A stretch of DNA of 64,000 bases from an uncultured Acetobacteraceae bacterium (lineage in GTDB: Bacteria > Pseudomonadota > Alphaproteobacteria > Acetobacterales > Acetobacteraceae): positions 1 to 64,000 of the forward strand of contig CAIYDT010000216.1 of the NCBI GenBank assembly GCA_903924985.1, written 5' to 3'. Below the pieces are notes generated by a model. That model was given only the letters and a program-made list of their open reading frames with translations, had not been told where the DNA came from and did no database searches. Numbering within the stretch: the stretch's first letter is position 1; every line of letters begins with the position of its first letter. The translations under genes were made by a program, and so were the position numbers. Below are positions 9,797 through 36,884 of the stretch, in pieces.

Positions 9797-10963
9797 ATGC
9801 TGCCGGCGGTGCTCGACGATTTGGTGGTGCTGGATCTCAGCCAAGGAATCGCGGGACCGATCTGCGCCCGGCTGCTCGGCGACCATGGTGCCGACGTCAT
9901 CAAGGTCGAACCGCCGAACGGCGATTACGGACGGCGCATGCCGCCATTCTTCCAGGACGACCCGCATCCGGAAAAAAGCCTGTTCTTCCTGATGGCCAAC
10001 CTGAACAAGCGCGGCATCGTGCTGGATCTGGAGACGCCGCTCGGGGTGTCGCGGCTGCGGCAGTTGGCCCGTTCGGCGGACGTGATCGTCGAGAATTTCA
10101 CGCCCGGCTATCTGGCCTCCTTGGGTCTCGATCACGCGACCCTCGTTCAGGACAACCCCGGACTGGTGATGACGTCCATCACGCCGTTCGGCCAGACCGG
10201 CCCCTACAGCCGGTACAAGGGCGATGAGATCGTCACCTACGCCACCAGCGGCATCATGGCGATCAGCGGCACCTCCGACCGGGAGCCATTGAAGCACGGC
10301 GGCGTTCCGGGCGAGTACGAGTCGGCCATGAACGGCATGCTGGCGACCAATGTCGCGATCCTGGTGCGCGACATGACCGGCGTTGGACGGCATGTGGATG
10401 TGTCGATGCAGGAGGTTGTAGCCTCCTCGCTGGTGATCGAGCAGCCCTGGTACAGTTTTGCCGGCGGCGTGCAGGGCCGCCGGCATGTCGAGGGGACCAA
10501 TTTCGGGCAGGTGATGCCCTGCAAGGACGGCTATTTCATCAGCCAGGAAGGCGGCGGCGCCACCTGGGAGACGATCGCCGACTTCTACGGGCGCCCGGAA
10601 CTGAAGGAGCCGCGCTTCGCCGAGCCGGCACAGCGCATGCGGAACGCCCATGAGATGGATCCATTCATCCTGGAGGCGACCAAGGACCGCACCATGGCCG
10701 AGCTGTTTAATACGGCATCCGAGAAGTTCCGCCTTCTGTTCGGAATCGTGCAAACGCCGGCAGACCTCGCGCGTTGCGGACAGCTTGAAGCGAGGGGATT
10801 TTTCCAGGAGGTCGATCACCCGGTGATCGGCAAGATTCGGGTCCCATTCCGGTTGTGGAACATGAGTGCCGGAGGGGCGACCTACCGCGCGCCAGCGCCT
10901 TTGCTGGGGCAGCATAACGCGGAAGTGTTTCAGACGCTCGAAGTATCCAGCGGCGCGATTTGA
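9797..10963 (+). CDS. Class III CoA-transferase (CaiB/BaiF) with Glu at the usual Asp position
   Basis: 388-residue class III CoA-transferase; the family moves CoA between carboxylic acids through an enzyme aspartyl-CoA thioester. The N-terminal GPICARLLGDHGADVIKVE and the TSITPFGQTGPYSRY segment identify the family. Where relatives have the catalytic aspartate (VDxxxG helix), this protein reads VPGEYESAMNG, with glutamate by my alignment. The next gene, twenty bases on, is a second family member with a normal aspartate, so the two may form a heteromeric enzyme in which only one chain is catalytic. First gene of the plus-strand operon to 13924. The family call is firm; the residue assignment is by eye. 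Confidence 0.92.
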   Translation: MLPAVLDDLVVLDLSQGIAGPICARLLGDHGADVIKVEPPNGDYGRRMPPFFQDDPHPEKSLFFLMANLNKRGIVLDLETPLGVSRLRQLARSADVIVENFTPGYLASLGLDHATLVQDNPGLVMTSITPFGQTGPYSRYKGDEIVTYATSGIMAISGTSDREPLKHGGVPGEYESAMNGMLATNVAILVRDMTGVGRHVDVSMQEVVASSLVIEQPWYSFAGGVQGRRHVEGTNFGQVMPCKDGYFISQEGGGATWETIADFYGRPELKEPRFAEPAQRMRNAHEMDPFILEATKDRTMAELFNTASEKFRLLFGIVQTPADLARCGQLEARGFFQEVDHPVIGKIRVPFRLWNMSAGGATYRAPAPLLGQHNAEVFQTLEVSSGAI

Positions 10964-10982
10964 CCGGAGGCGGCGAGACAGA

Positions 10983-12368
10983 ATGACGGACGATACCGAA
11001 AACGCGGGTCGGGAAGCGAAGCTTCCGCTCTCCGGGATGCGAGTCATCGACATCAGCAACGTCTTCTCGTTGCCTTATGCGGCCGGCCTGCTGACCGATC
11101 TTGGCGCTGAGGTGATCAAGATAGAAGGTCCCGCGCGAATCGACACCACACGGGGCGGAAATTTTTCGGCCGTCTATGCGGATAACGAGCCGGGCGAGGA
11201 TCCGTGGAACCGTACCGCCACGTTCAACCTGCTGAATCGCGGCAAAAAATCGCTCACGCTCGATTTGCGCGAGCCAGCCGGACGCGACGTCCTGCGCGAC
11301 CTCATTAAGGTGAGCGATATCCTGGCGGAGAATTTCACCCCGCGGGTCATGCGCGGCTGGGGGTTGGATTATCCGAACGCGACCAAACTCAATCCCAACC
11401 TGATCATGCTCTCCTGCAGCGGTTACGGGCGGGAAGGGCCCTATGCCACGTACCCCGGGCAGGCCACCACGATGGAAGCCACGCACGGATTGACGCATGT
11501 CACCGGATACCGCGGCGGAGAGCCATCGAAAGCCGGCCAGTCCTTCGTCGATTTTCTCGCCAGTTGGGCTTTGGTGATGGGCACGACGCTGGCGGTGCGC
11601 TACCGTAACCGTTTTTCCAAGGGCATTTGGATCGATGTCGCCATGTATCAGCTCGGCTGTTCCATGGTGTCCGATTACATCCTCGATTGGGAAGCGAACG
11701 GGCGGCTGGGCGAACGAATCGGCAATCGTCATCCGTGGCTGGCACCGCAAGGCTGTTATCGTTGCGCTGGGGACGACGATTGGTGCGTCGTGTCGGTGCA
11801 CGACGATGAGGAGTGGGCCGGATTGTGCCGGATGATCGGGCAGCCGGACCTCGCGGGCGATTCGCGCTTCGCCACCAACGAAGCCCGTATGCGCAACCAT
11901 GATGAGATCGACACGATCATCGGAGCATGGACCCAAGGGGTTGGAAAATTCGACGCGATGCACGCGTTTCAGGCAGCCGGCGTGCGCGCGGGTGCGGTGT
12001 TCGATGGGCGGGACATGCACCTGGATCGCCATGCCAAGGCCCGCGGTATGCTGGAGCTTCAACGGTTTCCGCCGGAACGAAAAATCGGCGACCGCCCCAT
12101 CATCGGCCGGCCGTGGCGGCTGAGCGGCCTGCCGCTGTCCGTTCGCGGTCCTGGACCGATGCTCGGTCAACATAATCGAGACGTCCTCCAGGGCATATTG
12201 GGATACGACGACGCGCGTTACGCGGCGCTGGAACAGAGCGGCATCATCGCGACTCAGCCAACTTCGTTGCGTCCGATCGTGCGCATGGGGATGGACGAGC
12301 GCGTCAAACGTGGGCGGTTGGCGTCCTGGGATCCGGACTACAAGGAACGGCTGGGTCTCAAAGACTGA
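10983..12368 (+). CDS. Class III CoA-transferase (CaiB/BaiF), catalytic Asp present
   Basis: 461-residue class III CoA-transferase starting at the ATG with GGAGG upstream; the 39-codon longer start in the track lies inside the previous gene. Family landmarks are LPYAAGLLTDLGAEVIKIEG, NRGKKSLTLDLREPAGRD and CSGYGREGPYATYPG. The catalytic aspartate is seen in SFVDFLASWALVMG. The C-terminus carries the usual MLGQHNRDVLQ. It directly follows another CoA-transferase gene (9797) and precedes an SMP-30-type gene by eighteen bases, so the three are probably co-transcribed. Likely role: activation of the pathway acid to its CoA ester using a short acyl-CoA donor. Substrate and donor are not evident. 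Confidence 0.93.
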   Translation: MTDDTENAGREAKLPLSGMRVIDISNVFSLPYAAGLLTDLGAEVIKIEGPARIDTTRGGNFSAVYADNEPGEDPWNRTATFNLLNRGKKSLTLDLREPAGRDVLRDLIKVSDILAENFTPRVMRGWGLDYPNATKLNPNLIMLSCSGYGREGPYATYPGQATTMEATHGLTHVTGYRGGEPSKAGQSFVDFLASWALVMGTTLAVRYRNRFSKGIWIDVAMYQLGCSMVSDYILDWEANGRLGERIGNRHPWLAPQGCYRCAGDDDWCVVSVHDDEEWAGLCRMIGQPDLAGDSRFATNEARMRNHDEIDTIIGAWTQGVGKFDAMHAFQAAGVRAGAVFDGRDMHLDRHAKARGMLELQRFPPERKIGDRPIIGRPWRLSGLPLSVRGPGPMLGQHNRDVLQGILGYDDARYAALEQSGIIATQPTSLRPIVRMGMDERVKRGRLASWDPDYKERLGLKD

Positions 12369-19737: not shown

Positions 19738-21101
19738 GCCTGACAGCGGAACTTGGGGCGTTTCTGGCCGGCATCTCGTACGACGCGCTGCCGGGCGAGG
19801 CGCTGCCCATCGTGCGCATGGGATTCACCGATGCCATCGGGGTCATGCTGGTCGGCACCGCCGAACCGGTGGCCGCGATCGTCCGCCAGGCGCTGATGAC
19901 GCCGACAACCCAGCCGGAGGCGCGCGCCTGCCTGTCCCACCTGCGTGTCACGGCGGCGGACGCGGCGCTGTTGGGCGGCACCGCGGCGCACGCGATCGAC
20001 TATGACGACCAGTCGTTGACCGGCCATCCCAGCGCCGTGCTGGTGCCGGCGATCCTGGCGGAGGGCGAACGGCTGGATGCCGACGGGCATGCGCTGGTTA
20101 CCGCCTATGTCGCGGGCTACGAGGTGTGGGCCGAACTGGTGCGGCGCGACACGGGGTATCACCGCAAGGGGTGGCACCCCACCGCTGTATTCGGCACGAT
20201 CGGTGCCGCTGCCGCGTGTGCCGTGCTCAACCGGTTGTCGGCGGAACGTGCGTCCATGGCCCTCGGCATCGCGGCAAGCCACGCCGGCGGCATGGCAACC
20301 AGTTTCGGCAGCACGACGAAGCCGTATCACGCCGGGAAGGCCGCGCGGGACGGCGTGGTGGCCGTCCGCCTCGCCGCCGCCGGCATGACCGCCGGGCGGG
20401 AAGCGTTCGAGCACGCGCAGGGCTTCCTCACGGCCTTTTCGCCCGGCACGCCGGACCGGGAGTCGCCCGCTCGGGTGGGCAAAGACTGGTACATCCCGCG
20501 CCAGGGGCTGTGCATCAAGCTCTACCCCACCTGCTATTTCATGCACCGCTCGTTCGAGGCGGCGGTGAAGCTGCTGGCCGGGCGGGGCATCGGCCCAACC
20601 GACATTGCCGAGGTGCGCGTCACCATGGGCCGCGGTGAGGCCGACGTGCTGTTCAATCACCGCCCTGGCACCGCGGACGAGGCGCGGTTCAGCGAGGAAT
20701 TCGCCATGGCCACCGCCGTCATCCTCGGTCGCATGGGGGTGGCGGAACTGTCCAACGCGGTCGTACAACGCGCCGATTTCAAGGATTTCTACCCCAAGGT
20801 GCATATCGATACGATCGACGAGCGCGACCCGCGCGAGCCGGCGGTGGCGCCGTACGCGCAGGTGCGCATCCGGCTGGCGAATGGATCGATGCTCGACAGT
20901 GGGCAGGTGAGCGGCATCCACGGCCATCCCTCGGACCCGGTCACCGCGGCGGAGCAATGGACGAAGTTCCAGGAATGCACCGCGCGGACCCACACGCCGG
21001 CGGAGGCGCGGACACTGTTCGACATGTTGCAGCAGGTTGAGACGCTGGCATCGGCGCGGGCGCTCCCGACCGCCGCTTCGGTGTTCGCCGGCGCGGGCTG
21101 A
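19734..21101 (+). CDS. MmgE/PrpD family protein
   Basis: 455-residue MmgE/PrpD protein starting at the ATG that overlaps the ThDP-enzyme stop; the longer ORF in the track is a shadow of that gene. Landmarks are AIDYDDQSLTGHPSA, HPTAVFGTIGAAAA, SFGSTTKPYHAGKAARDG and KLYPTCYFMH. It is closer in these motifs to the third copy (34315) than to the first (5709). Expected chemistry is dehydration, decarboxylation or epimerisation of a di- or tricarboxylic acid, judged from characterised family members only. A flavoprotein gene follows after five bases. Confidence 0.92.
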   Translation: MSLTAELGAFLAGISYDALPGEALPIVRMGFTDAIGVMLVGTAEPVAAIVRQALMTPTTQPEARACLSHLRVTAADAALLGGTAAHAIDYDDQSLTGHPSAVLVPAILAEGERLDADGHALVTAYVAGYEVWAELVRRDTGYHRKGWHPTAVFGTIGAAAACAVLNRLSAERASMALGIAASHAGGMATSFGSTTKPYHAGKAARDGVVAVRLAAAGMTAGREAFEHAQGFLTAFSPGTPDRESPARVGKDWYIPRQGLCIKLYPTCYFMHRSFEAAVKLLAGRGIGPTDIAEVRVTMGRGEADVLFNHRPGTADEARFSEEFAMATAVILGRMGVAELSNAVVQRADFKDFYPKVHIDTIDERDPREPAVAPYAQVRIRLANGSMLDSGQVSGIHGHPSDPVTAAEQWTKFQECTARTHTPAEARTLFDMLQQVETLASARALPTAASVFAGAG

Positions 21102-23024: not shown

Positions 23025-24614
23025 CTACGGGTCGATCAATACCCCCGGGTTCAATACCCCCCGCGGATCGAGCGCCTGCTTCGCCGCCGTCAACGCCGCC
23101 GCGAACAAATCCGGCCGCTGCCGGTCGTACCAAGGCCGGTGCTCGCGACCCACCGCGTGGTGATGCGTGATCGTGCCGCCGCCGTCGATCACCGCGTCCG
23201 AGGCCGCGGTCTTGATCGCCTGCCATTGCTCCATCAGGGCCCCATGTCGCCCCAGTGCGTGGAAGCTGAAATAGGGCGCAGGGCCGTCCGGATAGACATG
23301 GGTGAAGCGGCACGTCACCTGCCCCGGCCGCCCGGTCGCGTCGCGGATCGCCCGTTCGGTTGCGGCTTTCACGTTGTCGTGGAAGGCCTCGAATCGCTCC
23401 CATGTGATCGCCGTCTCAAACGTGTCGGACACGATGCCGCGCGGGGTCATCTTCTCCCGCCCGTAGGGCATGCGGATGAAGGCGTTGCGCCATTGGCCCG
23501 CCGCGCCCTCCCGATGCGCGTCGGGACGGCCCGCCGTCTCCGGCTCACCGCCGAAATCGCGGACAACCTCCAACGCCCGAGCCTGCCAGGCGTCCAGGGG
23601 GTGGTCGGCGGATTCGAACGCCAGCACCATGATCGCGACCGATCCATCTGCGGCGCCGGTGTTGAACGCCTCCTCGGCGTCGAGGATGCGGCAGTTCGAC
23701 GGATACAGCCCGGTCTGGCTCAGCACCCGCAGCGCGCGGGCGGCGGTGAAGAAGTCCTTGAACCGCACCGCCCCGCCGGCTCGGAATTTCGGCCGGTTCT
23801 GCAGGCGCATCCAGGCCTCGGTGATCACGCCGAGAATGCCTTCGGAGCCGATGAACATCCGATCCGGACTCGGCCCGGCACCGGAGCCCGGCAGGCGGCG
23901 GCTTTCCAGCGTGCCGGCCGGCGTCACCACCCGCAGGCTTTCCACGAAATCGTCGATGTGCGTGTACAGCGTGGCGTAATGCCCCCCCGAACGGGTGGCG
24001 ATCCAGCCGCCCAGGGTGGAGAATTCGAAGCTTTGCGGGAAATGCCGCAGCGTCAGGCCGTGCGGCCGCAACTGGTTCTCCAGATCCGGGCCGAAGATGC
24101 CGGCCTGGATGCGCGCGGCGCGGGAGGTGCGGTCGATCTCCAGGACCTTATTCAGCCGGTCGAGATCGAGGGTTATCGTCGCCTTCGCGTTAGCGGGTGG
24201 CGTGACGCCACCCACCACACTCGATCCGCCGCCGAACGGGATCAGCGCTGCCCCGGCGCCACCGGCCCAGTCCATCACCGCCGCGATGTCCTGTTCGTTC
24301 TGGGGATAGGCCACCACGTCGGGGGCGGAGGCGAAGTCGTTCGACAGGGCCCGAATTGCATCGGTGAAGCCCTTGCCGTGCGCGTGCGCGGCGCGATCGT
24401 GGGTATCGATGGAGCAGATCCCCGCCAGCGCGGCCGGCGGGGCGATGCGCGGGGCGCGCAGGCGGATGTCGGCGAGTGTCGGTGTGGGAATGCTGGGAAA
24501 ATCGGCGACCCCGAAACGGCGGCGGTGGATGCCAAGCGAGAAGGATTCTTCCTCCGCCGTCATGCCCTCGCCTTCTCGTCCCCAGCCGAAAATCTTCAGG
24601 CGTGCTTGTGCCAT
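23025..24614 (-). CDS. FAD-binding oxidase, alkyl-DHAP-synthase-like
   Basis: 529-residue flavoprotein of the vanillyl-alcohol-oxidase/PCMH fold. The N-terminus KIFGWGREGE, the AHGKGFTDAIRAL region, PFGGGSSVVGGV FAD loop and FSTLGGWIATRSGGHYAT contact are all visible. The C-terminal GGTITHHHAVGREHRPWY histidine triplet is the hallmark of alkyldihydroxyacetonephosphate synthases, and the overall length fits. Bacterial members are often of unknown function and may oxidise 2-hydroxy acids instead, as in GlcD. It is a single minus-strand gene, divergent from the lyase operon at 24852. Ether-lipid synthesis cannot be assumed. Confidence 0.88.
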   Translation of the reverse strand: MAQARLKIFGWGREGEGMTAEEESFSLGIHRRRFGVADFPSIPTPTLADIRLRAPRIAPPAALAGICSIDTHDRAAHAHGKGFTDAIRALSNDFASAPDVVAYPQNEQDIAAVMDWAGGAGAALIPFGGGSSVVGGVTPPANAKATITLDLDRLNKVLEIDRTSRAARIQAGIFGPDLENQLRPHGLTLRHFPQSFEFSTLGGWIATRSGGHYATLYTHIDDFVESLRVVTPAGTLESRRLPGSGAGPSPDRMFIGSEGILGVITEAWMRLQNRPKFRAGGAVRFKDFFTAARALRVLSQTGLYPSNCRILDAEEAFNTGAADGSVAIMVLAFESADHPLDAWQARALEVVRDFGGEPETAGRPDAHREGAAGQWRNAFIRMPYGREKMTPRGIVSDTFETAITWERFEAFHDNVKAATERAIRDATGRPGQVTCRFTHVYPDGPAPYFSFHALGRHGALMEQWQAIKTAASDAVIDGGGTITHHHAVGREHRPWYDRQRPDLFAAALTAAKQALDPRGVLNPGVLIDP

Positions 24615-24708
24615 TTGCGTTTTCTCCCATTTGTCGTCCCGGACGCGGCGGCGGTCGACGCTATCCCGTTATAAGTTTGCACGTTACCGCGCCGGGCGTT
24701 CGGATCGT

Positions 24709-24722
24709 TTGACCTGTATCAA
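24709..24722. promoter_or_regulatory. FNR/FixK-type box (one mismatch)
   Basis: TTGACCTGTATCAA matches TTGAT-N4-ATCAA except for one base in the left half. It lies between the divergent genes starting at 24614 and 24852, about 130 bases before the lyase gene. It belongs to the group of four similar sites in this window. Confidence 0.5.
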
Positions 24723-24851
24723 TGCGAAAGGCCCCTGGGGCCGGAGTCTACGCTGGACTTGTCGGAATACGGGTCAAGGGTTTACGCTTCGTCGACTGCC
24801 ACGCGCTGCATCGGCCACGGCCGATCGGATGCTTGAACAAGGAGGGAACAC

Positions 24852-26057
24852 ATGGCCGGACGATATCCGAAGATCGTGTACACCGAAGAAGGCATGCGCG
24901 AGGGCATGCAGATCGAGGATGCGAACATCCCGGTCAGTTCCAAGGTCGAATTGCTGGATGCGCTGTCCGAGACCGGTCTGACGCAGATCGTGATCGGCTC
25001 GTTCGTCAGCCCGAAATACACCCCGCAGATGGCGCGCATCGATGAGATCGTGACCAAATTCACCCCCAAACCGGGGGTGAACTACTACGCGCTGGCGCTG
25101 AACGAAAAGGGCGTGGAGCGGGCCAAGCAGTACGCTCCGCCGCTGACCATCGTGCGCAGCAGCCGGCCTCAGCTGCGGGTGCACCAGTGCGACGTGTTCG
25201 CCCGGCGCAACACCAACCGCTCCCAGATGCAGGAAATGGCGGCCTGGGCGAAGGTGATCGACACCGCGGTCAAGAACGGCACCAAGGAAGCGGGTATCGG
25301 CACCAATGCCACTTTCGGCTCGAATTTCGTGGGCGACTTCAGCGTCGATATGACCATGAAGTTCCTCGAAAAGCAGCACGAGTTGTGGGATGCCGTGGGC
25401 ATCAAGGTGACCTCGGTCAGCATCGGCGATCCGATGGGCTGGTGCCATCCGATAAAGGTCGAGGAGATTTTCGGCCGCGTGAAGCGCAAATGGCCGGAGA
25501 TCAACACCTTCAGCGCGCATCTGCACAACAGCCGTGGCATGGCGATCACCTCGGCTTACTCGGCCATCAAGGCGCTGGACGGCGACGACACGCTGCATTT
25601 GCAGGGCACCATCGGCGGCATCGGCGGCTGCCCCTATTGCGGCAACGGGCGTGCGACCAGCATGGCGCCGACCGAGGATTTCATGCACATGCTGGAAGGC
25701 ATGGGCATCGAAACCGGCGTCAACCTCGACAAGCTGATCGACTGCGTGTGGATGCTGGAAAAGATGATCGGCCGCTACGCGTGGGGCCACGTGTCCCGCG
25801 CCGGCCCGCGTCCGATGACGCCGGACAAATTCTACGACATCAACGCGCCGTTCGTGGAGACGGTCGAGCAGGCCAAGCACTTCAAGCTGGGCAAGCACGC
25901 CTACGACGGCTGCATCTATCCGTGGGACAAGCCGATCGCCAGCCCGTATCACGACCGGGCGATGAAGGGTCAGCCGACCTACGAGGTGGTTGGCGATTGG
26001 CCGTGGGCGGAGGACTTCTTCCCCAAGCCGCAGAAGTTCTCAGCAGCCGCGGAATAG
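24852..26057 (+). CDS. HMG-CoA-lyase-like DRE-TIM metallolyase with REG in place of RDG
   Basis: 401-residue TIM-barrel protein of the HMGL/pyruvate-carboxyltransferase family, which cleaves 3-hydroxy-3-methylacyl-CoA-type substrates or makes the reverse bond. Seen are the entry motif MREGMQIED (residues 15-23), SFVSPK, the metal-binding FSAHLHNSRG and the flexible loop GGIGGCPYCGNG with the conserved cysteine, followed by PTEDFMHML. Normal HMG-CoA lyases have RDG at the entry; here the metal-ligand aspartate is glutamate. The chain is about 100 residues longer than bacterial HMG-CoA lyase, with an extra C-terminal part. The ATG is preceded by AAGGAGG. A two-gene MaoC hydratase follows, which suggests hydration then cleavage of an acyl-CoA. 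Confidence 0.85.
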   Translation: MAGRYPKIVYTEEGMREGMQIEDANIPVSSKVELLDALSETGLTQIVIGSFVSPKYTPQMARIDEIVTKFTPKPGVNYYALALNEKGVERAKQYAPPLTIVRSSRPQLRVHQCDVFARRNTNRSQMQEMAAWAKVIDTAVKNGTKEAGIGTNATFGSNFVGDFSVDMTMKFLEKQHELWDAVGIKVTSVSIGDPMGWCHPIKVEEIFGRVKRKWPEINTFSAHLHNSRGMAITSAYSAIKALDGDDTLHLQGTIGGIGGCPYCGNGRATSMAPTEDFMHMLEGMGIETGVNLDKLIDCVWMLEKMIGRYAWGHVSRAGPRPMTPDKFYDINAPFVETVEQAKHFKLGKHAYDGCIYPWDKPIASPYHDRAMKGQPTYEVVGDWPWAEDFFPKPQKFSAAAE

Positions 26058-26137
26058 GAACAGACACGTTGCCATGACGGCCGTGGGCGCCAGCGCGCCT
26101 CGGCTCGTCACGGCCGCGCACCGGCATGGAGCTGTGC

Positions 26138-26704
26138 ATGAGCGAGACGATGAATCCGTTGACCGATCAGATCAAGGCGCTGATCGGCACGTCCGCGGAG
26201 CGGATCGAAGCGAGTCCGCCCTGGGGAATCGAGCGGGAGGGGCTGCGCATTTTCACCAATGCGATCATGGACCCGGACCCGCGCTACTGGGACGACGAGT
26301 TCGCCAAGGGAACCAAGTTCGGCGGCATCGTCACGCCGCCGATCTATTGCTCCTACATCGGGCGCAAGACCCTGGCCGGCACCGACGACCCGATCACCCG
26401 GGCGTTCACCGAGAACCCGCACTCCGACGGTATCGGCGGCGTACGCGACGGTCTGGACCGCAAGGGCGCGCTGCCGAAGCTGCCGACGCCGCTGGTGCGC
26501 ATCCTGAACGCCGGCAACGAGATCGAGTTGATCCAGTATCCCAAGCTGGGCGACCACATCTACAGCCAGGCGCAATACTCCGACATCAAGGGGCGCGTCA
26601 CCAAGGACGGCACGGCGATGCTGATCGTCACCACCCAGACGACCTACACCAACCAAAATGGCGACGTGCTGTGCATCCTGCGCGCGTCGACCATCCGCCG
26701 TTAG
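26138..26704 (+). CDS. MaoC-like N-terminal-type hydratase subunit
   Basis: About 188 residues resembling the N-terminal hot-dog domain of two-domain acyl-CoA hydratases. The marker is AIMDPDPRYWDDEFAKG followed by FGGIVTPPIY, as in MaoC_dehydrat_N proteins; the catalytic histidine of the C-type domain is absent. The ATG at 26138 has GGAG at good distance; the track start is four codons earlier. The next gene, after 27 bases, encodes the C-type domain, so the two chains probably make one active hydratase. A paralogous pair lies at 35698-36720 in the opposite orientation. Confidence 0.82.
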   Translation: MSETMNPLTDQIKALIGTSAERIEASPPWGIEREGLRIFTNAIMDPDPRYWDDEFAKGTKFGGIVTPPIYCSYIGRKTLAGTDDPITRAFTENPHSDGIGGVRDGLDRKGALPKLPTPLVRILNAGNEIELIQYPKLGDHIYSQAQYSDIKGRVTKDGTAMLIVTTQTTYTNQNGDVLCILRASTIRR

Positions 26705-26731
26705 GCCGGGTCACACAAGGAGACGCCCATC

Positions 26732-27235
26732 ATGGTGACCGCAGACGACCTTCGTAACAAACAACAGACCTGGTACGATGACATCGAGGTGGGGCAGGAG
26801 ATGCCGCCTCTGGTCATCGGGCCGATGACGCCGACGCACCTGTTCCGCTGGAGCGCGGCGATCGAGAACTGGCACCGCATCCACTACGACCAGAACTTCG
26901 CCGTCTACCACGACGGCCTGCCCAGCATCCTGGGGCAGGGCTCGTGGAAGCAGAGCATCCTGCCGCGCTATCTGAAGGACCTCTGCCTGCCCGACGGCTG
27001 GATGTGGAAAGTACAGTTCCAGCACCGGGCAATGATCGTGCCAGGGGATACCATTACCGTCTGGGCCACGGTCACCGGCAAGAGCGTGCGCGACGGGCTT
27101 GGCTGCGTGGAGATGGATGTCGGCATGCGGCTGCATTACGGCGCCGAATCCTGCCCGGGCACGGCGACCATCGTGCTGCCGATTCGTGGCGGCCGGCCGG
27201 TCCCCTACCCATTCGTGCCCCCCAAAGCGGCATAA
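26732..27235 (+). CDS. MaoC/HTD2-like hydratase catalytic subunit
   Basis: 167-residue hot-dog protein. The region AIENWHRIHYDQNFA fits the NxHRIHYD signature of HTD2-type dehydratases and mesaconyl-C4-CoA or 3-methylfumaryl-CoA hydratases, rather than the DxNPxH of PhaJ-type hydratases. FQHRAMIVPGDTITVWATV forms the hot-dog core. It follows the N-type subunit gene and the HMGL-like gene in one operon. Taken with the lyase, a hydratase acting on a branched or dicarboxylic enoyl-CoA is plausible. Its close paralogue is at 35698. Confidence 0.85.
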   Translation: MVTADDLRNKQQTWYDDIEVGQEMPPLVIGPMTPTHLFRWSAAIENWHRIHYDQNFAVYHDGLPSILGQGSWKQSILPRYLKDLCLPDGWMWKVQFQHRAMIVPGDTITVWATVTGKSVRDGLGCVEMDVGMRLHYGAESCPGTATIVLPIRGGRPVPYPFVPPKAA

Positions 27236-27266
27236 ACCATTAACGCCGGCTGGCGAAGGAGAGACC

Positions 27267-27539
27267 ATGGGACGCTGGATCGTAGTCGGGAAGGCCCCGG
27301 GATGGGACAACCTCGAGACATTCACCGCGGAGATGAAATCGACGGAGCAGTGGCGGCTGGACCCGCGAACGACCGTCACCAGCGTGACCGCCCTGGCGGA
27401 CGGGCGCCTGCTGGCGGAATGCCACGCCGGGAGCACGGCGGATTTCGAGCCCTGGCTGGCGAAGAAGGGCTGGCAGGTCGAAAGCATCACACCGATCAAG
27501 CATATCGCCAGGACTGGGGAGATTTGGAAGATCGGCTGA
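27267..27539 (+). CDS. Small conserved-looking protein of unknown function
   Basis: 90 residues starting MGRWIVVGKAPGWDN at an ATG preceded by GAAGGAGAG; the longer ORF in the track reads into the previous gene. It is soluble, with alternating strand-like and helical stretches and a C-terminal HIARTGEIWKIG. Length and layout suggest a ferredoxin-like or dimeric alpha-beta barrel fold, but I do not recognise it. It is the last gene of the 24852-27539 operon, so it may assist the lyase or hydratase. It ends four bases from a convergent gene. Confidence 0.7.
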   Translation: MGRWIVVGKAPGWDNLETFTAEMKSTEQWRLDPRTTVTSVTALADGRLLAECHAGSTADFEPWLAKKGWQVESITPIKHIARTGEIWKIG

Positions 27540-27543
27540 TGGG

Positions 27544-28320
27544 TTACGCCGCGACCGACTGAACCATCCAGCCATCGCTGGTGCGCGGCAAGGGGCGCTG
27601 GCGCTTGGCGCCGCGCCACACCACCGAACCGTCCAGGCCGACAGCCCAGGCGTCGCCAACACCCAGCACGCGCAACCCATCGTTCGCCACCGCCACCGAG
27701 GTGACGTGGTGATGGCCGTGAACGATCGTCCGCGCGCCCATCGCTCGGGCGAGCCGATCCAGAATGAGACTACCCTCCGGATGGCTGGACGGGGCGTCGT
27801 GCGTCACCAGGACGTCGGCCTGTCGCGTCGCGAGCGCGTCAACGTCCTCCGGCCAAATCGCCGTGGTGGCCAGGAAGTGCATCATCCCGGCCGCGCGGTC
27901 CGGACTCAGATCCGGGCGGTTGGCCGCGAAATCGGCCACCAGTTGCTCCCGGCGGTGCAGCCGTGGCGGCCGGTCTCCGGCCCAGACCAGCGGCAGAAAG
28001 GTGCCGCCGAGGCCCGCCACGCGGACGCCGCCGATCTCCGCCACGCGGGTATGCAATGCCCCCGCCGCGGTCAGCGGATTGCGTTCGGGTGCCGCGAGGT
28101 TGGCCCACATCTCCGGGCCGGAGTCATGCTCGTGGTTGCCGTGGATCCAATAGATCGCGACGCCGCGATCCAGCAGCGGCGCGGCCAGATGGTCCAGCGG
28201 CGCCGTGCACTCGATGTCGCCCAGCAGCACCGCGGCGCGCGGTGGCGCCGACAGAGCCGCCAGTCCGGCCTCAATGTGATGCCAGTTCTGGTGGATATCG
28301 CCGATGAAAATAAGACTCAT
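27544..28320 (-). CDS. Metallophosphoesterase
   Basis: 258-residue calcineurin-like phosphoesterase. The metal-site motifs are FIGDIHQN, LGDIECT, HGNHEHDSG, VTHDAPSS and HGHHHV, in the usual order. A YfcE- or Ser/Thr-phosphatase-type activity is possible; no C-terminal specificity domain is present. It is on the minus strand downstream of the acyl-CoA dehydrogenase genes, separated from them by hairpins at 28344-28388, so it may have its own promoter. It has no clear link to the CoA-ester pathway. Confidence 0.88.
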   Translation of the reverse strand: MSLIFIGDIHQNWHHIEAGLAALSAPPRAAVLLGDIECTAPLDHLAAPLLDRGVAIYWIHGNHEHDSGPEMWANLAAPERNPLTAAGALHTRVAEIGGVRVAGLGGTFLPLVWAGDRPPRLHRREQLVADFAANRPDLSPDRAAGMMHFLATTAIWPEDVDALATRQADVLVTHDAPSSHPEGSLILDRLARAMGARTIVHGHHHVTSVAVANDGLRVLGVGDAWAVGLDGSVVWRGAKRQRPLPRTSDGWMVQSVAA

Positions 28321-28653: not shown

Positions 28654-29835
28654 TTACGCTTCCGCCATCACGGGAACCGGCCGGCCGAGGATAACATGCC
28701 CGGGGCAGTCCAACAGCGCGTGGGCCACACGGGCTCGATGCTCATACGCCGTACCAAGCCTGGTGGTCCAGGCGCACACCCGGCGGTACCAAAGCTGCAG
28801 ATCGAACTCCATGATAAATCCGATGCCGCCGTGGATCACCTGGCAGCCGCGGATCACCGCCTGGCACTTCTCGTTGCAGAATGCCTTGGCCTGCGACACT
28901 TCGACGCCCGCCGGAAGCCCTTGGTCCATCTTCCACAGCGCCTCGTAGGTCAGCAGCTCACCGCCATCGATCCACATCAGCATGTCCGCGCACATGTGCT
29001 GCAACGACTGGAACGCGCCGATCGGCTGGCCGAACGCCTTGCGGAATTTCGACCACTCGACCGCCATCTCCATGTCCTTGCGCGTCGCCCCCAGCATCTG
29101 CGCGCATAGCAGGGCCGTGGCCACGTCGATCAGTCCTTCGGCAATGGGCGCCCCTTCGTTCAGGCCGCCAACCAGGCGCGCCCGCGGCACATGCACGTCG
29201 CGGAATGTCACCTCGCTCTGCTTGTCCTTCGCCAGCGTCACCAGATCCCGGTGCGAAATGCCGGCGCTGTTGCTGTCCACCAGGAACAGCGACAGGCCCG
29301 CGCTCGCCGGCGAAGCGTCCGCCGTGCGGCACACCACCAGGCACTGGTCGGAGACACTGAAGTTATCCACGAACATTTTGGTGCCGTTCAGCACGAAGCC
29401 GTCGCCGCTGGCGACCGCGCGCGCCTGAACCGCCGCTGGCAGCAAGCGCGGGTCCTGTTCCATGTAGGCCCAGGTGAGAACGGCCTCGCCGGCAGCCACC
29501 TTCGGCAGCACGTCCTGGCACAGCGCCGCATCGGCATGTTTGGCGAGGGTTAAGGCGGCCGGCACCGTGCTCAGCAGCGGCAAAGGCGCCAGCGCGCGCC
29601 CCATCTCGTGCATCACCAAGCCCATATAGGTCAGCGGCATGCCGCTGCCGCCGTATTGCTCGGGCAGTGCCAAGCCCTGCCAGCCGAGGTCCGCCGCCTG
29701 CCGCCACAAAGCCGGTGGATAGCCGAGCGCGTCTTTCTCCATCGCGCGCACCAGCTTGGTCGGGCATTCAGTCTCGAGGAACTTCCGTGCAGTTTCCCGC
29801 ACCATCACTTCTTCTTCGCTCAGAGTCGTATCCAT
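28654..29835 (-). CDS. Acyl-CoA dehydrogenase
   Basis: 393-residue FAD-dependent acyl-CoA dehydrogenase beginning at the ATG with GGAGGAAG upstream. The N-terminal TLSEEEVMVRETARKFLE, the LPEQYGGSG and the helical C-terminal CQVIHGGIGFIMEFDLQLWYRR are seen. It is of a different subgroup from its upstream neighbour at 29861 and shorter in the beta domain (TWAYMEQDPR in place of GFTEPxAGAD). Such pairs of unlike dehydrogenase genes often encode heteromeric enzymes, for example in pimeloyl-CoA or sterol side-chain oxidation, so the two may form one complex. The substrate is unknown. Confidence 0.9.
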   Translation of the reverse strand: MDTTLSEEEVMVRETARKFLETECPTKLVRAMEKDALGYPPALWRQAADLGWQGLALPEQYGGSGMPLTYMGLVMHEMGRALAPLPLLSTVPAALTLAKHADAALCQDVLPKVAAGEAVLTWAYMEQDPRLLPAAVQARAVASGDGFVLNGTKMFVDNFSVSDQCLVVCRTADASPASAGLSLFLVDSNSAGISHRDLVTLAKDKQSEVTFRDVHVPRARLVGGLNEGAPIAEGLIDVATALLCAQMLGATRKDMEMAVEWSKFRKAFGQPIGAFQSLQHMCADMLMWIDGGELLTYEALWKMDQGLPAGVEVSQAKAFCNEKCQAVIRGCQVIHGGIGFIMEFDLQLWYRRVCAWTTRLGTAYEHRARVAHALLDCPGHVILGRPVPVMAEA

Positions 29836-29860
29836 ATCGCTTCCTCCGCGGTCGCCACCG

Positions 29861-31084
29861 CTACTTTCTTGGCATGTCGAGACCGCGACGGCAAATCTGG
29901 TCACGCATGACCTGTGTGCTGCCGTGGTTGATGCCGGACTGGAATGCCCCTTGCAAGTTGTGAGCGAAGACGCCGCTCTCTACCGCATGCGGCGAGCCAT
30001 TCAGCAACTGGCCGTAGGGGCCGAGCATCTGCGCGATCGCTTCGGTGGTGCGCACACCGTGTTCCGGGGCCCAGGTTTTTTCCGCTGAGCCTTCGTAGGT
30101 GAAGTTGCCGCCATGGTTCATGATGGACATGCTGCGCATCGTCATCAGGCGGCAGACCTGTGCCTCGATCCACAGCTCCGAGATTTTGTCGCGGATCGCG
30201 GGGTCCTGGGCGGGGGCGTAACCGTTGAAGCTGTTCGATTTGACGAAGTTGACGATATCCTCGTCGCGGCGAACGGAAATCAGGTAGCGGGCGGCCCCGA
30301 CGCGGTCGAGGTTGAGGCCCATGGCACCGACCCGCCAGCCTTCGTTCTCCTTACCCAACAGGCAGGAAGCGGGCACACGCACATCGTCGTAGAACGTCTC
30401 GTTGGTGCGCGGCGTGCCATAGGTCGTTCCGATCGGCGCCCTGGGATCGTTCTGCATGGTCCATAATGGCCGGACGGTGATGCCGGGCGTGTCCATTGGG
30501 AACAGGAAGATCGAGATGCCGCGGTGCTTCGGCAGGTTCGGGTTGGTCCGCGCCATCAGATAGATGTGCGTCGACATATGGGCCGACGACGTATACATCT
30601 TCTGCCCGTTGATGACGTAATCATCGCCATCGCGTACCGCGCGACATTGTAACGAAGCCAGGTCGGCGCCCGCATGCGGTTCGGTGAAGCCCAATGCGAA
30701 CGAGTACTCGCCGGTGATCAGCTTCGGGATGTAGTACTGCTTCTGCTCTTCGGTTCCGGCCGCCATGATCGCCGGCGCGCCGCTGCCACCCAGGCCCAGG
30801 GAGATGTCGACGCGGGCGAATTCCTCCTCGACGATGTACTGGGTCATGCGGTCGCCGCCCTGACCGCCGTACTCCTTCGGGTAACTGATACCCAGCCAGC
30901 CGCGTTCGCCGATCTTTTTGAAGAACTGGTTGACGTGCGTGGCGTTATGGCGACCTGGGCTGACGCCGAAGCCCTCGCTCAGCCCCTCCATCTCGGCACG
31001 AACCTCATCGGTCATGGTCTCGGCGATGAAGGCCCGGACCTCTCGTCGCAGAGCCTCTTGCTCCGGGGTGTATCCGAACTCCAT
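29861..31084 (-). CDS. Acyl-CoA dehydrogenase (copy 2 of a close paralogue pair)
   Basis: 407-residue acyl-CoA dehydrogenase, complete, with FALGFTEPHAGADLASLQCRA and C-terminal GSTQVMRDQICRRGLDMPRK. It is closely related over its whole length to 4443-5654 except for residues 20-60, where the two share little. Third-codon positions differ freely while the protein is conserved, so this is an old duplication kept by selection rather than a recent copy. It is the first gene of the minus-strand operon and starts 62 bases from a perfect FNR-type box. The neighbour 28654 may be its partner subunit. Confidence 0.93.
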   Translation of the reverse strand: MEFGYTPEQEALRREVRAFIAETMTDEVRAEMEGLSEGFGVSPGRHNATHVNQFFKKIGERGWLGISYPKEYGGQGGDRMTQYIVEEEFARVDISLGLGGSGAPAIMAAGTEEQKQYYIPKLITGEYSFALGFTEPHAGADLASLQCRAVRDGDDYVINGQKMYTSSAHMSTHIYLMARTNPNLPKHRGISIFLFPMDTPGITVRPLWTMQNDPRAPIGTTYGTPRTNETFYDDVRVPASCLLGKENEGWRVGAMGLNLDRVGAARYLISVRRDEDIVNFVKSNSFNGYAPAQDPAIRDKISELWIEAQVCRLMTMRSMSIMNHGGNFTYEGSAEKTWAPEHGVRTTEAIAQMLGPYGQLLNGSPHAVESGVFAHNLQGAFQSGINHGSTQVMRDQICRRGLDMPRK

Positions 31085-31160: not shown

Positions 31161-31262
31161 TGCTGCCCCCCGACAGGCGGCCCGATGGTTGGACACGTGC
31201 CAAGATCATAAACGAGAGGAAACGGGCTTGCAAAACCAAATATGCACGAAGGGCCACCCACG

Positions 31263-32495
31263 ATGAGCGGCCCCCTCGCCGGTATCAAGGTCGTCGAGTT
31301 CGGCGTGGCAATGGCAGGGCCGTTCTGCGGCATGATGCTCGCCGATTACGGCGCCGAGGTCATCAAGGTCGAACGGGTCGGCGTGGGCGACGACAGCCGC
31401 GGATGGCCACCGTACTTCCATGGCAAGGTGCCCTATTATTTTGCCTCGGCGAATCGTAACAAACTTAGCGTCGCGCTCGATCTGAAAAGCCCTGAAGGCC
31501 GGGAGGCGGCCCGCAAGCTGGTGCTGGACGCCGATGTGCTGCTGGGCAACTACCGGCTGGAAGCGCTGAACCGGGCCGGGCTGGATTACGAATCGTTATC
31601 GGCCGCGAACCCTCGCCTGATCTACTGCCTGATCAGCGGTTTCGGGTCCACGGGACCGCGCCGCCACGAGCCCGCCAACGACCTGTTCATGCAAGCCTAT
31701 ACCGGCGGCATGAGCATCACCGGGGAACCCGATCGCACGCCGTCCAAGATGGGGCTGTCGGTCGCCGATGTCGGCGCCGGCATGACCGCCACGATCGGCA
31801 TCCTGATGGCCCTGGAAGCCAGGCATCGCACCGGCCGCGGCCAGCGCGTCGACACATCGCTGCTGGAAGGCCAGATGGCGATGTTATCGTATCATATCAC
31901 CCGGTACTTCGCGACCGGGGTTGCGCCGCAACGGGCCGGCAGCGGCGGCGGGGTCGGGGTGCCCTACCAGGCCTTCCGAGCGGCCGACGACTACATTGTT
32001 GTCGCGGCGTTCAACCCGCGCATGTGGCGCGATTTCTGCGACGCGCTCGATCACCCGGAATGGGACGACGACCCACGCTTCCATACCTCCGGCGCACGCG
32101 CCGAGAACCGCGACGTTCTGATCGCCATGATCCACGAGGTCCTGGGGAAACACCCCGTGAAATACTGGGAGGAACGATTGCGCGCGCGCAGCGTGCCATC
32201 CTCCCCGGTCAACAATGTCGCGCAGATCGTCGCCGAGGAGCAGGTGGCGGCGCGGGATATGGTGGTGGAGATCGACGTTCCCGGTGCCGGTCCGATCAAA
32301 ATGGCCGGACTTCCCCTGAAATTCACCGAGACCCCGGGCGCCATACAGCTCCCGCCGCCCCGGCTGGGCGAGCACACCGAGGCGATGCTGCGGCGCGTTG
32401 GCTACAGCGCCGCGGAGATCGCCGATCTGGCGGCGCGTGAGGCGATCGGCTTGGATGGGCCGCTGGAAGACCACGAGGGCGCCGGCGGACGATAA
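31263..32495 (+). CDS. Class III CoA-transferase (CaiB/BaiF)
   Basis: About 410 residues. Landmarks are GVAMAGPFCGMMLADYGAEV, CLISGFGSTGPRR and the catalytic aspartate in LSVADVGAGMTATIG. The C-terminus has the usual PRLGEHTEAML. Two starts exist: ATG 31242 (used in the track) and ATG 31263, which gives the normal MSGPLAGIKVVEF beginning and is preferred. An LLM oxidoreductase gene follows after 15 bases. It probably activates a carboxylic acid for the adjacent acyl-CoA dehydrogenases across the FNR-type divergent promoter. Confidence 0.93.
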   Translation: MSGPLAGIKVVEFGVAMAGPFCGMMLADYGAEVIKVERVGVGDDSRGWPPYFHGKVPYYFASANRNKLSVALDLKSPEGREAARKLVLDADVLLGNYRLEALNRAGLDYESLSAANPRLIYCLISGFGSTGPRRHEPANDLFMQAYTGGMSITGEPDRTPSKMGLSVADVGAGMTATIGILMALEARHRTGRGQRVDTSLLEGQMAMLSYHITRYFATGVAPQRAGSGGGVGVPYQAFRAADDYIVVAAFNPRMWRDFCDALDHPEWDDDPRFHTSGARAENRDVLIAMIHEVLGKHPVKYWEERLRARSVPSSPVNNVAQIVAEEQVAARDMVVEIDVPGAGPIKMAGLPLKFTETPGAIQLPPPRLGEHTEAMLRRVGYSAAEIADLAAREAIGLDGPLEDHEGAGGR

Positions 32496-34314: not shown

Positions 34315-35658
34315 TCAGTGAACCGCCGTCAACGCCCGTGCCGAGATCGACTGCATCGATTGCAGCCGCCCGAACAGCACGTCCGCTGGAATCGCGGACC
34401 CGCTGCTTGTCAGGCAGTCCGCGAACTTCTCATGCAGTTGCGAATCGGTCAGCGGCCGCTCGGCATGGCCGCGCGCCCGCGTTACCCGTTCGCTTTGCAG
34501 GACCTGGCCCGAAGTCAGCTCGATCGTCACCTGTTCCCATGGCGAGGAACCCGGGTTCGCCGCGTCGGTTTCGTCCGTCAGGTCGCGTTCCACCTTCCGC
34601 ATCATGTCCTGCACGTCCTTGCGCTGCACGAACGGGTCGGTCAGTTCGGACAGGCTCACGCGATGTGCGATCAGGCCGCTCGCCATCGCGAATTCCATGC
34701 TGAACTTGGCGGCGAGGCCGGTGTCGGGCTGGCGGTTGCGCAGCACGTTGGACGTCAGCGAACTGAAATGCACCGATACCTTCTTTACGTCGGTGGGCTT
34801 CACCGGATGCGCGCCCACGAGATCCAGCATGGCATCGATGGCGCGATGCGTGCCGTAGCAGGCGGGGTATTTCTTGATGCTGAGGCCATGCTGTATAATG
34901 GCCCAGTCTTCGCCGAGCTTTCCGTCACCGGAACGGTCTGGATTGTTCTGAGGGGAGACGGCGCTCAGGAACCCTTGCGGATGTTCCAGCGCGTCCACGT
35001 TGGCGGTGAAGCCGGCCTCCGCCAGCCGCGCCGCCATGATGCCGGAATGCGCCGACTTCCCGGCATGGAACGGCTTCGTCATGGTGCCGAAGTTCGCCAT
35101 GATCCCGGATGCCTGCGACGCGCCGAGCGCGATGGCGATCGCGGTGCGGGTGGCGTCGAGTTTGCGCAGCTTGGCACAGGCCGCCGCGGCGCCGACCGCG
35201 CCGAAGATGCCCGTGGGGTGGAACCCCTTCTGGTGGTACATCGGCACATCGCGACGAACCATCTCGGCCCAGGTCTCATAGCCGGCGATGTAGGCGATCA
35301 GCATGTCCTGGCCGGTGGCGCCAAGCACCTCGGCTTCCGCCAGGATGGCCGGCACGAGCACGGTGGACGGATGGCCGCGCAAGGCCACGTCGTCATAATC
35401 CAGCGCGTGCGCGGCGGTGCCGTTGATCCAGCCGGCCTCCGGCCCCGGGCTTTGTTCGCCGCTGAAATATAGCGTGGCCGGGCCTTTGCCGGGTGCCAAT
35501 ACGCCCTTGAGAATCTGCGTGCAGGGTTCGGTGCGTCCCACGATCATCGTGCCGATGCAGTCGATGAAGCCCATGCGGGCGATGCGGATCGCTTCGTCCG
35601 GCACCCGGTTGGGTGACAGATCCGCGATAAACTGGCCAAGTGCCTTGGTGAGAGCCAT
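34315..35658 (-). CDS. MmgE/PrpD family protein
   Basis: 447-residue MmgE/PrpD protein. LDYDDVALRGHPSTV, GFHPTGIFGAVGAAAA, NFGTMTKPFHAGKSAHSG and KKYPACYGTHRA are visible. It resembles the 19734 copy more than the 5709 copy. In this operon it follows a MaoC pair and precedes an SDR, whereas the 5709 copy follows another MaoC pair and precedes an acyl-CoA dehydrogenase, so the module MaoC-MaoC-MmgE/PrpD occurs twice in the window. Likely a dehydratase, decarboxylase or epimerase on a polycarboxylic substrate. Confidence 0.92.
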   Translation of the reverse strand: MALTKALGQFIADLSPNRVPDEAIRIARMGFIDCIGTMIVGRTEPCTQILKGVLAPGKGPATLYFSGEQSPGPEAGWINGTAAHALDYDDVALRGHPSTVLVPAILAEAEVLGATGQDMLIAYIAGYETWAEMVRRDVPMYHQKGFHPTGIFGAVGAAAACAKLRKLDATRTAIAIALGASQASGIMANFGTMTKPFHAGKSAHSGIMAARLAEAGFTANVDALEHPQGFLSAVSPQNNPDRSGDGKLGEDWAIIQHGLSIKKYPACYGTHRAIDAMLDLVGAHPVKPTDVKKVSVHFSSLTSNVLRNRQPDTGLAAKFSMEFAMASGLIAHRVSLSELTDPFVQRKDVQDMMRKVERDLTDETDAANPGSSPWEQVTIELTSGQVLQSERVTRARGHAERPLTDSQLHEKFADCLTSSGSAIPADVLFGRLQSMQSISARALTAVH

Positions 35659-35697
35659 CGTGTGTTTCCTCCTGTTGCCGTGCGTCGGAATCCTTGG

Positions 35698-36183
35698 CTA
35701 ACCCGCCGAACCGAGGCAGGCGGGATCGAACGGATAGGGGACCGCCGGCCCCCCGCGCCGCGGCAGCACCACGGTGGCGGTGCCGGGCGTGCCTTCTTCA
35801 TTCTTTTGGTTTCTCAACCCGATCTCCAGCCGGACCAGGCCGTACGGGCCGCGTTCCTCCGTCCCGGTGACGCGGCCCCAGGCGGTGAGCAAGTCGCCGG
35901 GCACGTTCATGCCACGGAACTGGAAGCGGATATTCCACAGCCACCCGTTCTCGCCCACCCAATCGGTCAGCAACTGGATCAGAACATGTTGTTTCCACGA
36001 TCCGTTGACGACGACGTCCGGCAGCTTGTCATGTCCGGTAGCGAATTTCCAGTCGTAATGGATGCGGTGCCAGTTTTCCATAGCCGAGGACCAACGCATG
36101 ACGTGCGCCGTGCTCATCGGCCCTTTGACGACCGTGGGGATGTCCTGTCCGACCGCGACATCTTCGAAGCAAAGGCCACTCAT
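35698..36183 (-). CDS. MaoC/HTD2-like hydratase catalytic subunit
   Basis: 161-residue hot-dog protein, paralogue of 26732. It carries AMENWHRIHYDWKFA with the NxHRIHYD signature and FQFRGMNVPGDLLTAWGRV in the core strand region. It follows the N-type subunit gene (36196-36720) by 12 bases, mirroring the pair at 26138-27235. Presumably the two chains form an enoyl-CoA hydratase for the same or a related acyl-CoA. The end is proline-rich (VPYPFDPACLG), matching the paralogue's VPYPFVPPK. Confidence 0.85.
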   Translation of the reverse strand: MSGLCFEDVAVGQDIPTVVKGPMSTAHVMRWSSAMENWHRIHYDWKFATGHDKLPDVVVNGSWKQHVLIQLLTDWVGENGWLWNIRFQFRGMNVPGDLLTAWGRVTGTEERGPYGLVRLEIGLRNQKNEEGTPGTATVVLPRRGGPAVPYPFDPACLGSAG

Positions 36184-36195
36184 GGCGGGCTCCCC

Positions 36196-36720
36196 TCAGC
36201 GCAGGATGGTCGTGGTGGTTACGGCGACCAACGGAACATCGCCATCCGTGGCGTAGGCATCGGCGGCAATGACAAACACCATCGGCCCGCTCTGGCCGTC
36301 GCGCTGATAGATATCGAGGTAGGTACTGCTGCGATATATGCGTTCCCCGATCCGTGCGTAGCGAAAGAAGTCGTATTCGTAGCCGCCATTCAACAGGCGG
36401 GGCAGGGGTACGTTCACCGGCGGCAGGCCGCGATAATTGCGGGGCAAGCCGTCGAAATCCGGGTCGGCCATGCGATCCAGCGGGTCCGTTTCGTCCGGCT
36501 TGCGCCGGAAGGCGAATGGCGGGAACGCGGGCGGGGCGACCACGCCGCCATAGCGGCTGCTTTTTGCCCAGGCTTCGTCCCAATAGCGCGGGGAGGGATC
36601 CATGATCGCGTGGTGGAAACGGCGGACCTCGCTTGCCTCCACCGGATGGAAGGCCAGGACCGGGCCATTGTGCGCGCCGATGAGCGCCTTGATCTCATCG
36701 GTGATGTAGTTCACTGGCAC
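36196..36720 (-). CDS. MaoC-like N-terminal-type hydratase subunit
   Basis: About 174 residues with a GTG start at 36720, chosen because GGGAGG lies seven bases upstream and because the alternative start in the track adds forty residues with no counterpart in the paralogue 26138. The hot-dog N-type domain shows AIMDPSPRYWDEAWAKS and YGGVVAPPAFP, parallel to the paralogue. First gene of the minus operon to 33490; its 5' region contains a TetR-like palindrome (36885) and a perfect FNR-type box (36908). Confidence 0.8.
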   Translation of the reverse strand: MPVNYITDEIKALIGAHNGPVLAFHPVEASEVRRFHHAIMDPSPRYWDEAWAKSSRYGGVVAPPAFPPFAFRRKPDETDPLDRMADPDFDGLPRNYRGLPPVNVPLPRLLNGGYEYDFFRYARIGERIYRSSTYLDIYQRDGQSGPMVFVIAADAYATDGDVPLVAVTTTTILR

Positions 36721-36884
36721 GCCCGTTCCTCCCGGTGGGATGTTTCCGATAGGGATTGAAAGAGATGGCGGGGCGCGACCGGCATGACCCCATTTCGGGG
36801 CAAAGGAACTTTGCCGCCTGGCCATCCCTGATACGGGCAAGCATCGATATTGCGGTCACTTTACGTGCCCTCCACCGATCTGTT

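Follow-up and report, generated by a model that had tools for sequence, protein, structure and literature searches.

3-Hydroxy-3-methylglutaryl-CoA (HMG-CoA) lyases are the nearest solved relatives of the enzyme analysed here; in the human protein the metal is held by Asp42, His233, His235 and Asn275, and catalysis involves Arg41, Glu72, Tyr167 and Cys266 (PMC6941031). A second point of reference is the itaconate/methylsuccinate cluster of pseudomonads (ict, mcd, mmgE/msi, ich, ccl), in which a CoA-transferase, a methylsuccinyl-CoA dehydrogenase, a methylsuccinate isomerase of the MmgE/PrpD family, an itaconyl-CoA hydratase and a citramalyl-CoA lyase are encoded in one cluster; a 1,4-dicarboxylate backbone is common to the known MmgE/PrpD substrates (PMC12290011). 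The window examined here is the whole 64,000-nt stretch of a contig (CAIYDT010000216.1) from an uncultured Acetobacteraceae bacterium. It carries a gene for a C-C lyase of HMGL fold, followed by genes for a two-subunit MaoC hydratase (MaoC-N and MaoC-C) and for a 90-aa protein, P90 (Table 1). We tentatively read these genes, with slightly less than even confidence, as the end of a catabolic module degrading a 2-substituted succinate, that is, a branched or alicyclic 1,4-dicarboxylate.

Residues and phylogeny of the lyase

The lyase is a member of the Pfam family HMGL-like (PF00682; DRE-TIM metallolyase superfamily), which covers residues 12-297 with an E value of 2e-20 and 73.7 bits against a gathering score of 29. 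Its AlphaFold model (mean predicted local distance difference test score, pLDDT, 84.7) has the TIM-barrel fold of HMG-CoA lyases: the top 14 Foldseek matches are all HMG-CoA lyases, with TMt of 0.74-0.76 for the human (2cw6), P. aeruginosa (2ftp) and B. subtilis (1ydo) enzymes, and E 1.4e-18 and TMt 0.76 for the human one. Immediately 5' of the open reading frame (ORF) stands an apparent ribosome-binding site, aaggaggg; scanning positions 24600-27700 for promoters and terminators revealed none. The best family model is the NCBIfam HMG-CoA lyase (NF004283), at 162.7 bits, far under its cut-off of 246, and weaker matches point to homocitrate and isopropylmalate synthases.

The active site was compared in an alignment of the lyase family (81 rows) with the three solved HMG-CoA lyases and with HMGL-like sequences from genomes, and the metal site was deduced from this alignment rather than from model coordinates. 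Human positions 41/42/72/167/233/235/266/275 read R E V G H H C M in 76 of the 81 family rows, the other five deviating only at 72 (Ala) or 275 (Gln or Leu). Asp42 is thus replaced by Glu in every row, Glu72 by Val in 79 rows and by Ala in 2, and position 275 holds Met (78 rows), Gln (2) or Leu (1); the family presents Glu, His, His and one of these three residues where HMG-CoA lyases have their four metal ligands. Of the DRE triad, which consists of Asp, Arg and Glu (human Asp42, Arg41 and Glu72), Arg alone is retained. The window lyase shares Arg41, His233, His235, Cys266 and the GGCPY loop with HMG-CoA lyases, and differs from them in Asp42→Glu, Glu72→Val, Tyr167→Gly and Asn275→Met, as well as in an 83-aa C-terminal extension. 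The Arg, the Cys and the two His residues do not vary among 43 aligned relatives. Rows outside the family are mostly RDE.HHCN, and since position 167 is variable there too, the loss of Tyr167 carries little weight.

The original prediction had singled out two features of the lyase, REG instead of RDG and an additional C-terminal part. Both are real: R16-E17-G18 is invariant across the 43 relatives, and about 83 residues, 13 of them invariant in the same set, lie beyond the HMGL core. REG was also considered as a unique marker of the family and rejected, because a sister clade of HMGL-like proteins carries it; REG by itself is therefore not diagnostic. These 15 outside rows (REG_N) combine REG with a retained Asn275, 11 of them have Gln at position 72, and three are paralogues from the window's own genome. 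REG_N proteins, which read REGFQ and are annotated as hydroxymethylglutaryl-CoA lyase, share with the lyase family REG, the loss of Glu72 in most members and a place in one REG clade, but they keep Asn275 and have neither the CPYCGNG loop nor the C-terminal extension. What is distinctive of the lyase clade is the combination of Asp42→Glu, Glu72→Val and Asn275→Met with the C-terminal extension, Arg41, both His and Cys266 being retained.

In a tree of 116 rows, based on a short search with support only from the Shimodaira-Hasegawa-like approximate likelihood ratio test (SH-aLRT) and with many inner forks not settled, 69 RDG/Asn275 rows, among them the human, P. aeruginosa and B. subtilis enzymes, lie on one side of a branch with SH-aLRT 97. 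The REG rows lie opposite. The lyase clade itself has an SH-aLRT of 100 and a stem of 0.96, and does not group with characterised HMG-CoA lyases. The outside rows from genomes were baited with a consensus query, and the ratio of RDG to REG_N in this sample is no measure of prevalence.

The 80 relatives that were retrieved are 60-89% identical to the window lyase and occur almost all in metagenome-assembled genomes. Judged by record titles, some of which probably belong to misnamed bins, they come from Acetobacteraceae/Rhodospirillales, Betaproteobacteria, Candidatus Rokuibacteriota, Lambdaproteobacteria and many SAR202/Dehalococcoidia. Farther off, at 48-54% identity, the clade also includes a protein of the Rhodococcus USK10 megaplasmid and two from the window genome's taxonomic family. 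Few of the window's kin have the clade: at E 1e-90 it was found in 5 of 98 genomes, one of them the window's own, and in two of these five the lyase is just 48-49% identical. Among 399 evenly sampled Pseudomonadota genomes, the best match beyond the window's own is 37% identical.

Gene neighbourhood and co-occurrence

Genes around the 80 lyase loci were counted by tblastn with the window proteins, a search that diverged homologues escape, in flanks of at most 8 kb and often shorter. The MaoC pair lies directly downstream of the lyase in 29 of the 80 loci. Outside Chloroflexota this arrangement holds for 25 of 27 loci, and the pairing is therefore not due to chance; of the two exceptions, one locus (L019) ends 0.9 kb past the lyase and the other (L062) is truly without the MaoC pair. 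The predicted two-subunit hydratase with the N-x-H-R-I-H-Y-D signature of itaconyl-/mesaconyl-C4-CoA (HTD2-like) hydratases does follow the lyase, its NWHRIHYD block being found in MaoC-C, where it aligns with 8khg. The best PDB match of MaoC-C is itaconyl-CoA hydratase (8khg/8huc; E 0.002 over 39 residues).

Twenty-six of the 29 cassette loci extend at least 2.6 kb downstream, and all 26 contain MaoC-N, MaoC-C and P90. Subunits of a CoA-transferase pair (CoATa in 21, CoATb in 18) and of an acyl-CoA dehydrogenase pair (ACADl in 20, ACADs in 17) recur in the same loci, and a homologue of MmgE/PrpD was found within 8 kb in 14 of them. As the 29 loci were chosen for having MaoC, the informative figures are the 25 of 27 for MaoC, the 26 of 26 for P90 and the counts of the partners. 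P90 belongs to the lyase–hydratase unit, which recurs in soil and ocean bacteria of distant kinship. Against curated Pfam models it gives nothing over the cut-off (best WCX, 19.7 against 23.9 bits), by sequence it has no match in the PDB, and Foldseek returns only weak ferredoxin-like matches (best E 0.004). On the Rhodococcus USK10 plasmid the lyase, the MaoC pair, two CoA-transferases and an acyl-CoA dehydrogenase lie on one strand; papers on USK10 proved irrelevant, judged by title and abstract. While the initial observation of a lyase beside a hydratase was real, it had missed P90, whose gene its range (24852-27539) takes in, the paired CoA-transferases, the paired acyl-CoA dehydrogenases and the link to MmgE/PrpD.

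This association extends to part of the REG_N sister clade, as seen on plasmid 3 of Variovorax SRS16 (L169, 6314-14899). There a REG_N protein is encoded between a thiamine diphosphate (ThDP) enzyme and MmgE/PrpD, in a stretch that also holds an acyl-CoA dehydrogenase, a CoA-transferase and a MaoC pair. The tblastn scan found PrpD in just 2 of 17 REG_N neighbourhoods, both picked from annotated plasmids.

The 51 loci without MaoC beside the lyase are, except for L019 and L062, Chloroflexota by title, and several end too early to judge. Eleven SAR202/Dehalococcoidia (Chloroflexota) genomes were searched whole, and each has exactly one lyase of the clade and a strong MaoC-C match; the two genes are adjacent in one genome (G588, locus L040) and apart in the other ten. 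In these ten MaoC-N lies near MaoC-C throughout, and P90 was detected in nine, the tenth locus (L210) being 2 kb long and ending shortly after MaoC-C. Among the 98 kin genomes, the four with this type of MaoC-C, one being the window's own, are also the four with P90, and three of them have the lyase (Fisher p 2.6e-5 for lyase and MaoC-C, uncorrected for kinship). The fourth genome, G019, reaches a contig end about 250 bases upstream of MaoC-N, where one frame (L230, 9144-9393) reads WPREEPFFPKPQ, resembling WPWAEDFFPKPQ of the lyase C-terminus, with no alignment further upstream. By this resemblance, its lyase gene would be either cut off by the contig end or degraded.

A carboxylase beside an RDG-type HMGL is expected for leucine operons, and of 16 RDG-type HMGL neighbourhoods, up to 17 kb in size, 14 had one. 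By comparison, a biotin carboxylase was found within 8 kb of the lyase in none of the 80 loci, and in none of the 26 cassette loci. These counts give no support to the proposal that the carboxylase at 40 kb acts as an earlier step, and as a partner in the pathway it was rejected. It is a single chain of 1124 aa with biotin carboxylase, carrier and carboxyltransferase parts (40065-43436, + strand), and is not conserved near the lyases of relatives.

Could the enzyme be an ordinary HMG-CoA lyase of leucine catabolism whose substitutions are neutral? The best family model and the retention of Arg41, both His and Cys266 would fit, but the score lies far under the NCBIfam cut-off, two of four metal ligands and Glu72 are altered, the clade is separate with full support on a stem of 0.96, and the neighbourhood lacks the carboxylase; we regard this as very improbable. 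The evidence says that the HMG-CoA lyase label, and hence leucine degradation, is wrong for the lyase clade, and the separate clade and different gene context support the original view that the enzyme is something else. Somewhat less remote, and still unlikely, is that the protein works in the condensing direction, as a synthase of the isopropylmalate or citramalate type, or that, no longer capable of metal catalysis, it has a different role. The changed metal ligands and the weaker synthase matches speak for it; close linkage to genes of catabolic type (for CoA-transferase, dehydrogenase and hydratase) speaks against it, and the invariant Arg, His and Cys residues argue against a loss of catalysis.

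Other catabolic genes of the window

The window also holds the partners seen in relatives, namely the conserved CoA-transferase pair (9797-12368) and the acyl-CoA dehydrogenase pair (28654-31084). In most of the cassette loci that were compared, CoATa shares 56-78% identity with the pair member encoded close to the lyase, and the PDB matches of CoATa include both benzylsuccinate CoA-transferase chains (9fn0_A/B) among other family III enzymes. The overlap of the CoATb and CoATa ORFs suggests a later true start for CoATb. The dehydrogenases match the PimC and PimD models, both below cut-off, and in the small subunit Leu replaces Glu of the YEGTS segment of CarC, as would be expected if only one subunit of this pair were catalytic. 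CoATc matches models of succinate-glutarate and mesaconate CoA-transferases below cut-off, and its association with the lyase module is uncertain.

The MmgE/PrpD protein of a second module is 69-86% identical to the PrpD near the lyase in three loci (L011, L013, L014). A second MaoC pair adjoins this gene (34315-36840, - strand), and the trio is contiguous in another genome (G004, L231); in a further one (G038, L232) a CoATc homologue and an HMGL-like protein with 35% identity to the lyase are found close to MaoC2-C and PrpD. Judged by ORF translations, the catabolic genes are preceded by an ATP-binding cassette (ABC) transporter with substrate-binding protein, ATPase and permease (15191-17945, +). 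A flavoprotein at 21107-22804 (+), like KstD and 4-oxocyclohex-2-ene-1-carboxylate dehydrogenase, suggests alicyclic substrates in this island.

Table 1. Coordinates of the lyase module and of related catabolic genes in the window
Feature	Position	Strand	Remarks
HMGL-fold C-C lyase, 401 aa, REG/Met clade	24852..26057	+	Pfam HMGL-like, fold match, tree
Arg16-Glu17-Gly18 (human Arg41-Asp42-Gly43); metal ligand Asp to Glu	24897..24905	+	alignment
Met271, at position of human metal ligand Asn275	25662..25664	+	Met in 78/81 family rows
C-terminal extension of lyase, residues 319-401	25806..26057	+	not in HMGLs nor in REG_N sister clade
MaoC-N, hydratase subunit (FAS1_DH_region)	26126..26704	+	true start perhaps a few codons downstream
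MaoC-C, hydratase subunit with HRIHYD block	26732..27235	+	
NWHRIHYD block of MaoC-C, residues 46-53	26867..26890	+	invariant in 18 aligned members
P90, 90 aa, predicted ferredoxin-like alpha/beta fold	27267..27539	+	conserved in cassettes
CoATa, CoA-transferase family III, subunit a of conserved pair	9797..10963	+	
CoATb, CoA-transferase family III, subunit b	10866..12368	+	overlaps subunit a ORF
MmgE/PrpD family protein	19746..21101	+	family search
ACADs, acyl-CoA dehydrogenase, PimD-like small subunit	28654..29904	-	
ACADl, acyl-CoA dehydrogenase, PimC-like large subunit	29861..31084	-	
CoATc, third CoA-transferase family III, succinate-glutarate/mesaconate type	31242..32495	+	
MmgE/PrpD family protein of second module	34315..35658	-	
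MaoC2-C, second MaoC-C subunit	35698..36183	-	
MaoC2-N, second MaoC-N subunit	36196..36840	-	coding start probably near 36762

A candidate pathway for substituted succinates

The best reading of these genes remains, as first suggested, that a branched or dicarboxylic acyl-CoA is hydrated and then cleaved at a C-C bond, and we infer a substituted succinate as the substrate because the MmgE/PrpD link points there. In the proposed sequence, the MmgE/PrpD protein would set the stereochemistry of the free acid, the two-subunit family III CoA-transferase would load CoA onto the distal carboxyl, and the two-subunit PimCD-like acyl-CoA dehydrogenase would yield an enoyl-CoA resembling mesaconyl-CoA. 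The two-subunit hydratase, with P90 perhaps as an accessory subunit, would then add water to give a tertiary alcohol like citramalyl-CoA, which the HMGL-fold lyase would cut between C2 and C3 in a metal-assisted retro-aldol reaction, releasing a 2-oxo acid and acetyl-CoA (or a longer acyl-CoA). Arg16 and Cys260 may act as their counterparts do in HMG-CoA lyase; the metal would be held by Glu17, His223, His225 and the substrate, with Met271 in place of the fourth protein ligand and Val47 in place of Glu72. Isopropylmalate, homocitrate and citramalate synthases, which belong to the same superfamily, join 2-oxo acids to acetyl-CoA, and cleavage to a 2-oxo acid is therefore chemically at home in this fold.

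The module shares with the pseudomonad itaconate/methylsuccinate cluster its five reaction types and a hydratase with an HRIHYD block. It differs in that transferase, dehydrogenase and hydratase are each paired, in the additional P90, and in a lyase of HMGL fold rather than Ccl. Ccl, the (S)-citramalyl-CoA lyase of that cluster, is CitE-like; no CitE-like gene was seen among the window genes examined, though no dedicated CitE search was made, and an HpaI-like aldolase lies at 43479-44300. With the heteromeric enzymes of steroid and benzylsuccinate degradation (ChsH1-ChsH2, the 6wy8 dehydrogenase and the 9fn0 CoA-transferase) the module has in common that hydratase, dehydrogenase and CoA-transferase are each built of two subunits, but identity is low, and the pathways and the lyase are different. 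No paper was found that connects HMG-CoA lyase to SAR202 or to itaconyl-CoA hydratase, or that describes the cassette.

The same module logic could also serve a beta-branched or glutarate-type acyl-CoA, with a 3-hydroxy-3-alkyl(glutaryl)-CoA split into acetyl-CoA plus a ketone or a 3-oxo acid, on the model of HMG-CoA or isohexenyl-HMG-CoA cleavage or of the retro-aldol step on steroid side chains. The HMGL fold, the kinship with HMG-CoA lyases and the PimC/PimD-like dehydrogenases would suit such a substrate; the pairing of subunits in hydratase and dehydrogenase suggests a bulky one, and the KstD/ChcC-like flavoprotein hints at alicyclic chemistry. Against this, the MmgE/PrpD proteins speak for a succinate backbone, the 80 loci offer no carboxylase to form a glutaconyl-type intermediate, and Glu72 of HMG-CoA lyase is lost. 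We consider this alternative doubtful.

Several observations weigh against the substituted-succinate reading itself. No characterised member of the lyase clade was found; about half of the cassettes, and no more, have PrpD nearby, and its subfamily is not constant; the alignment of MaoC-C with itaconyl-CoA hydratase is short and weak; in most SAR202 genomes the lyase lies outside the operon; and losing both Asn275 and Glu72 could also signal another reaction.

A bolder form of the substituted-succinate reading, which we put forward as a possibility short of probable, is that a new type of DRE-TIM lyase, with Met for the Asn ligand and a C-terminal lid of its own, cleaves homologues resembling citramalyl-CoA derived from bulky alkyl- or alicyclic succinates. 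It would do so within an undescribed pathway of paired enzymes and P90, in SAR202 and soil bacteria feeding on recalcitrant carboxyl-rich matter. That SAR202 is involved with such matter has been put forward in the literature as a hypothesis (PMC5395668). Among curated models HMG-CoA lyase fits the lyase best, and the REG_N relatives carry it as their annotation, a label that assigns leucine degradation; many SAR202 genomes contain the lyase clade. Should the reading prove true, the cassette would provide a testable gene set for the degradation of branched or alicyclic dicarboxylates, compounds of a kind suspected to occur in refractory dissolved organic matter, and the lyase would be a natural test of how far the HMGL metal site tolerates the loss of Asn275 and Glu72.

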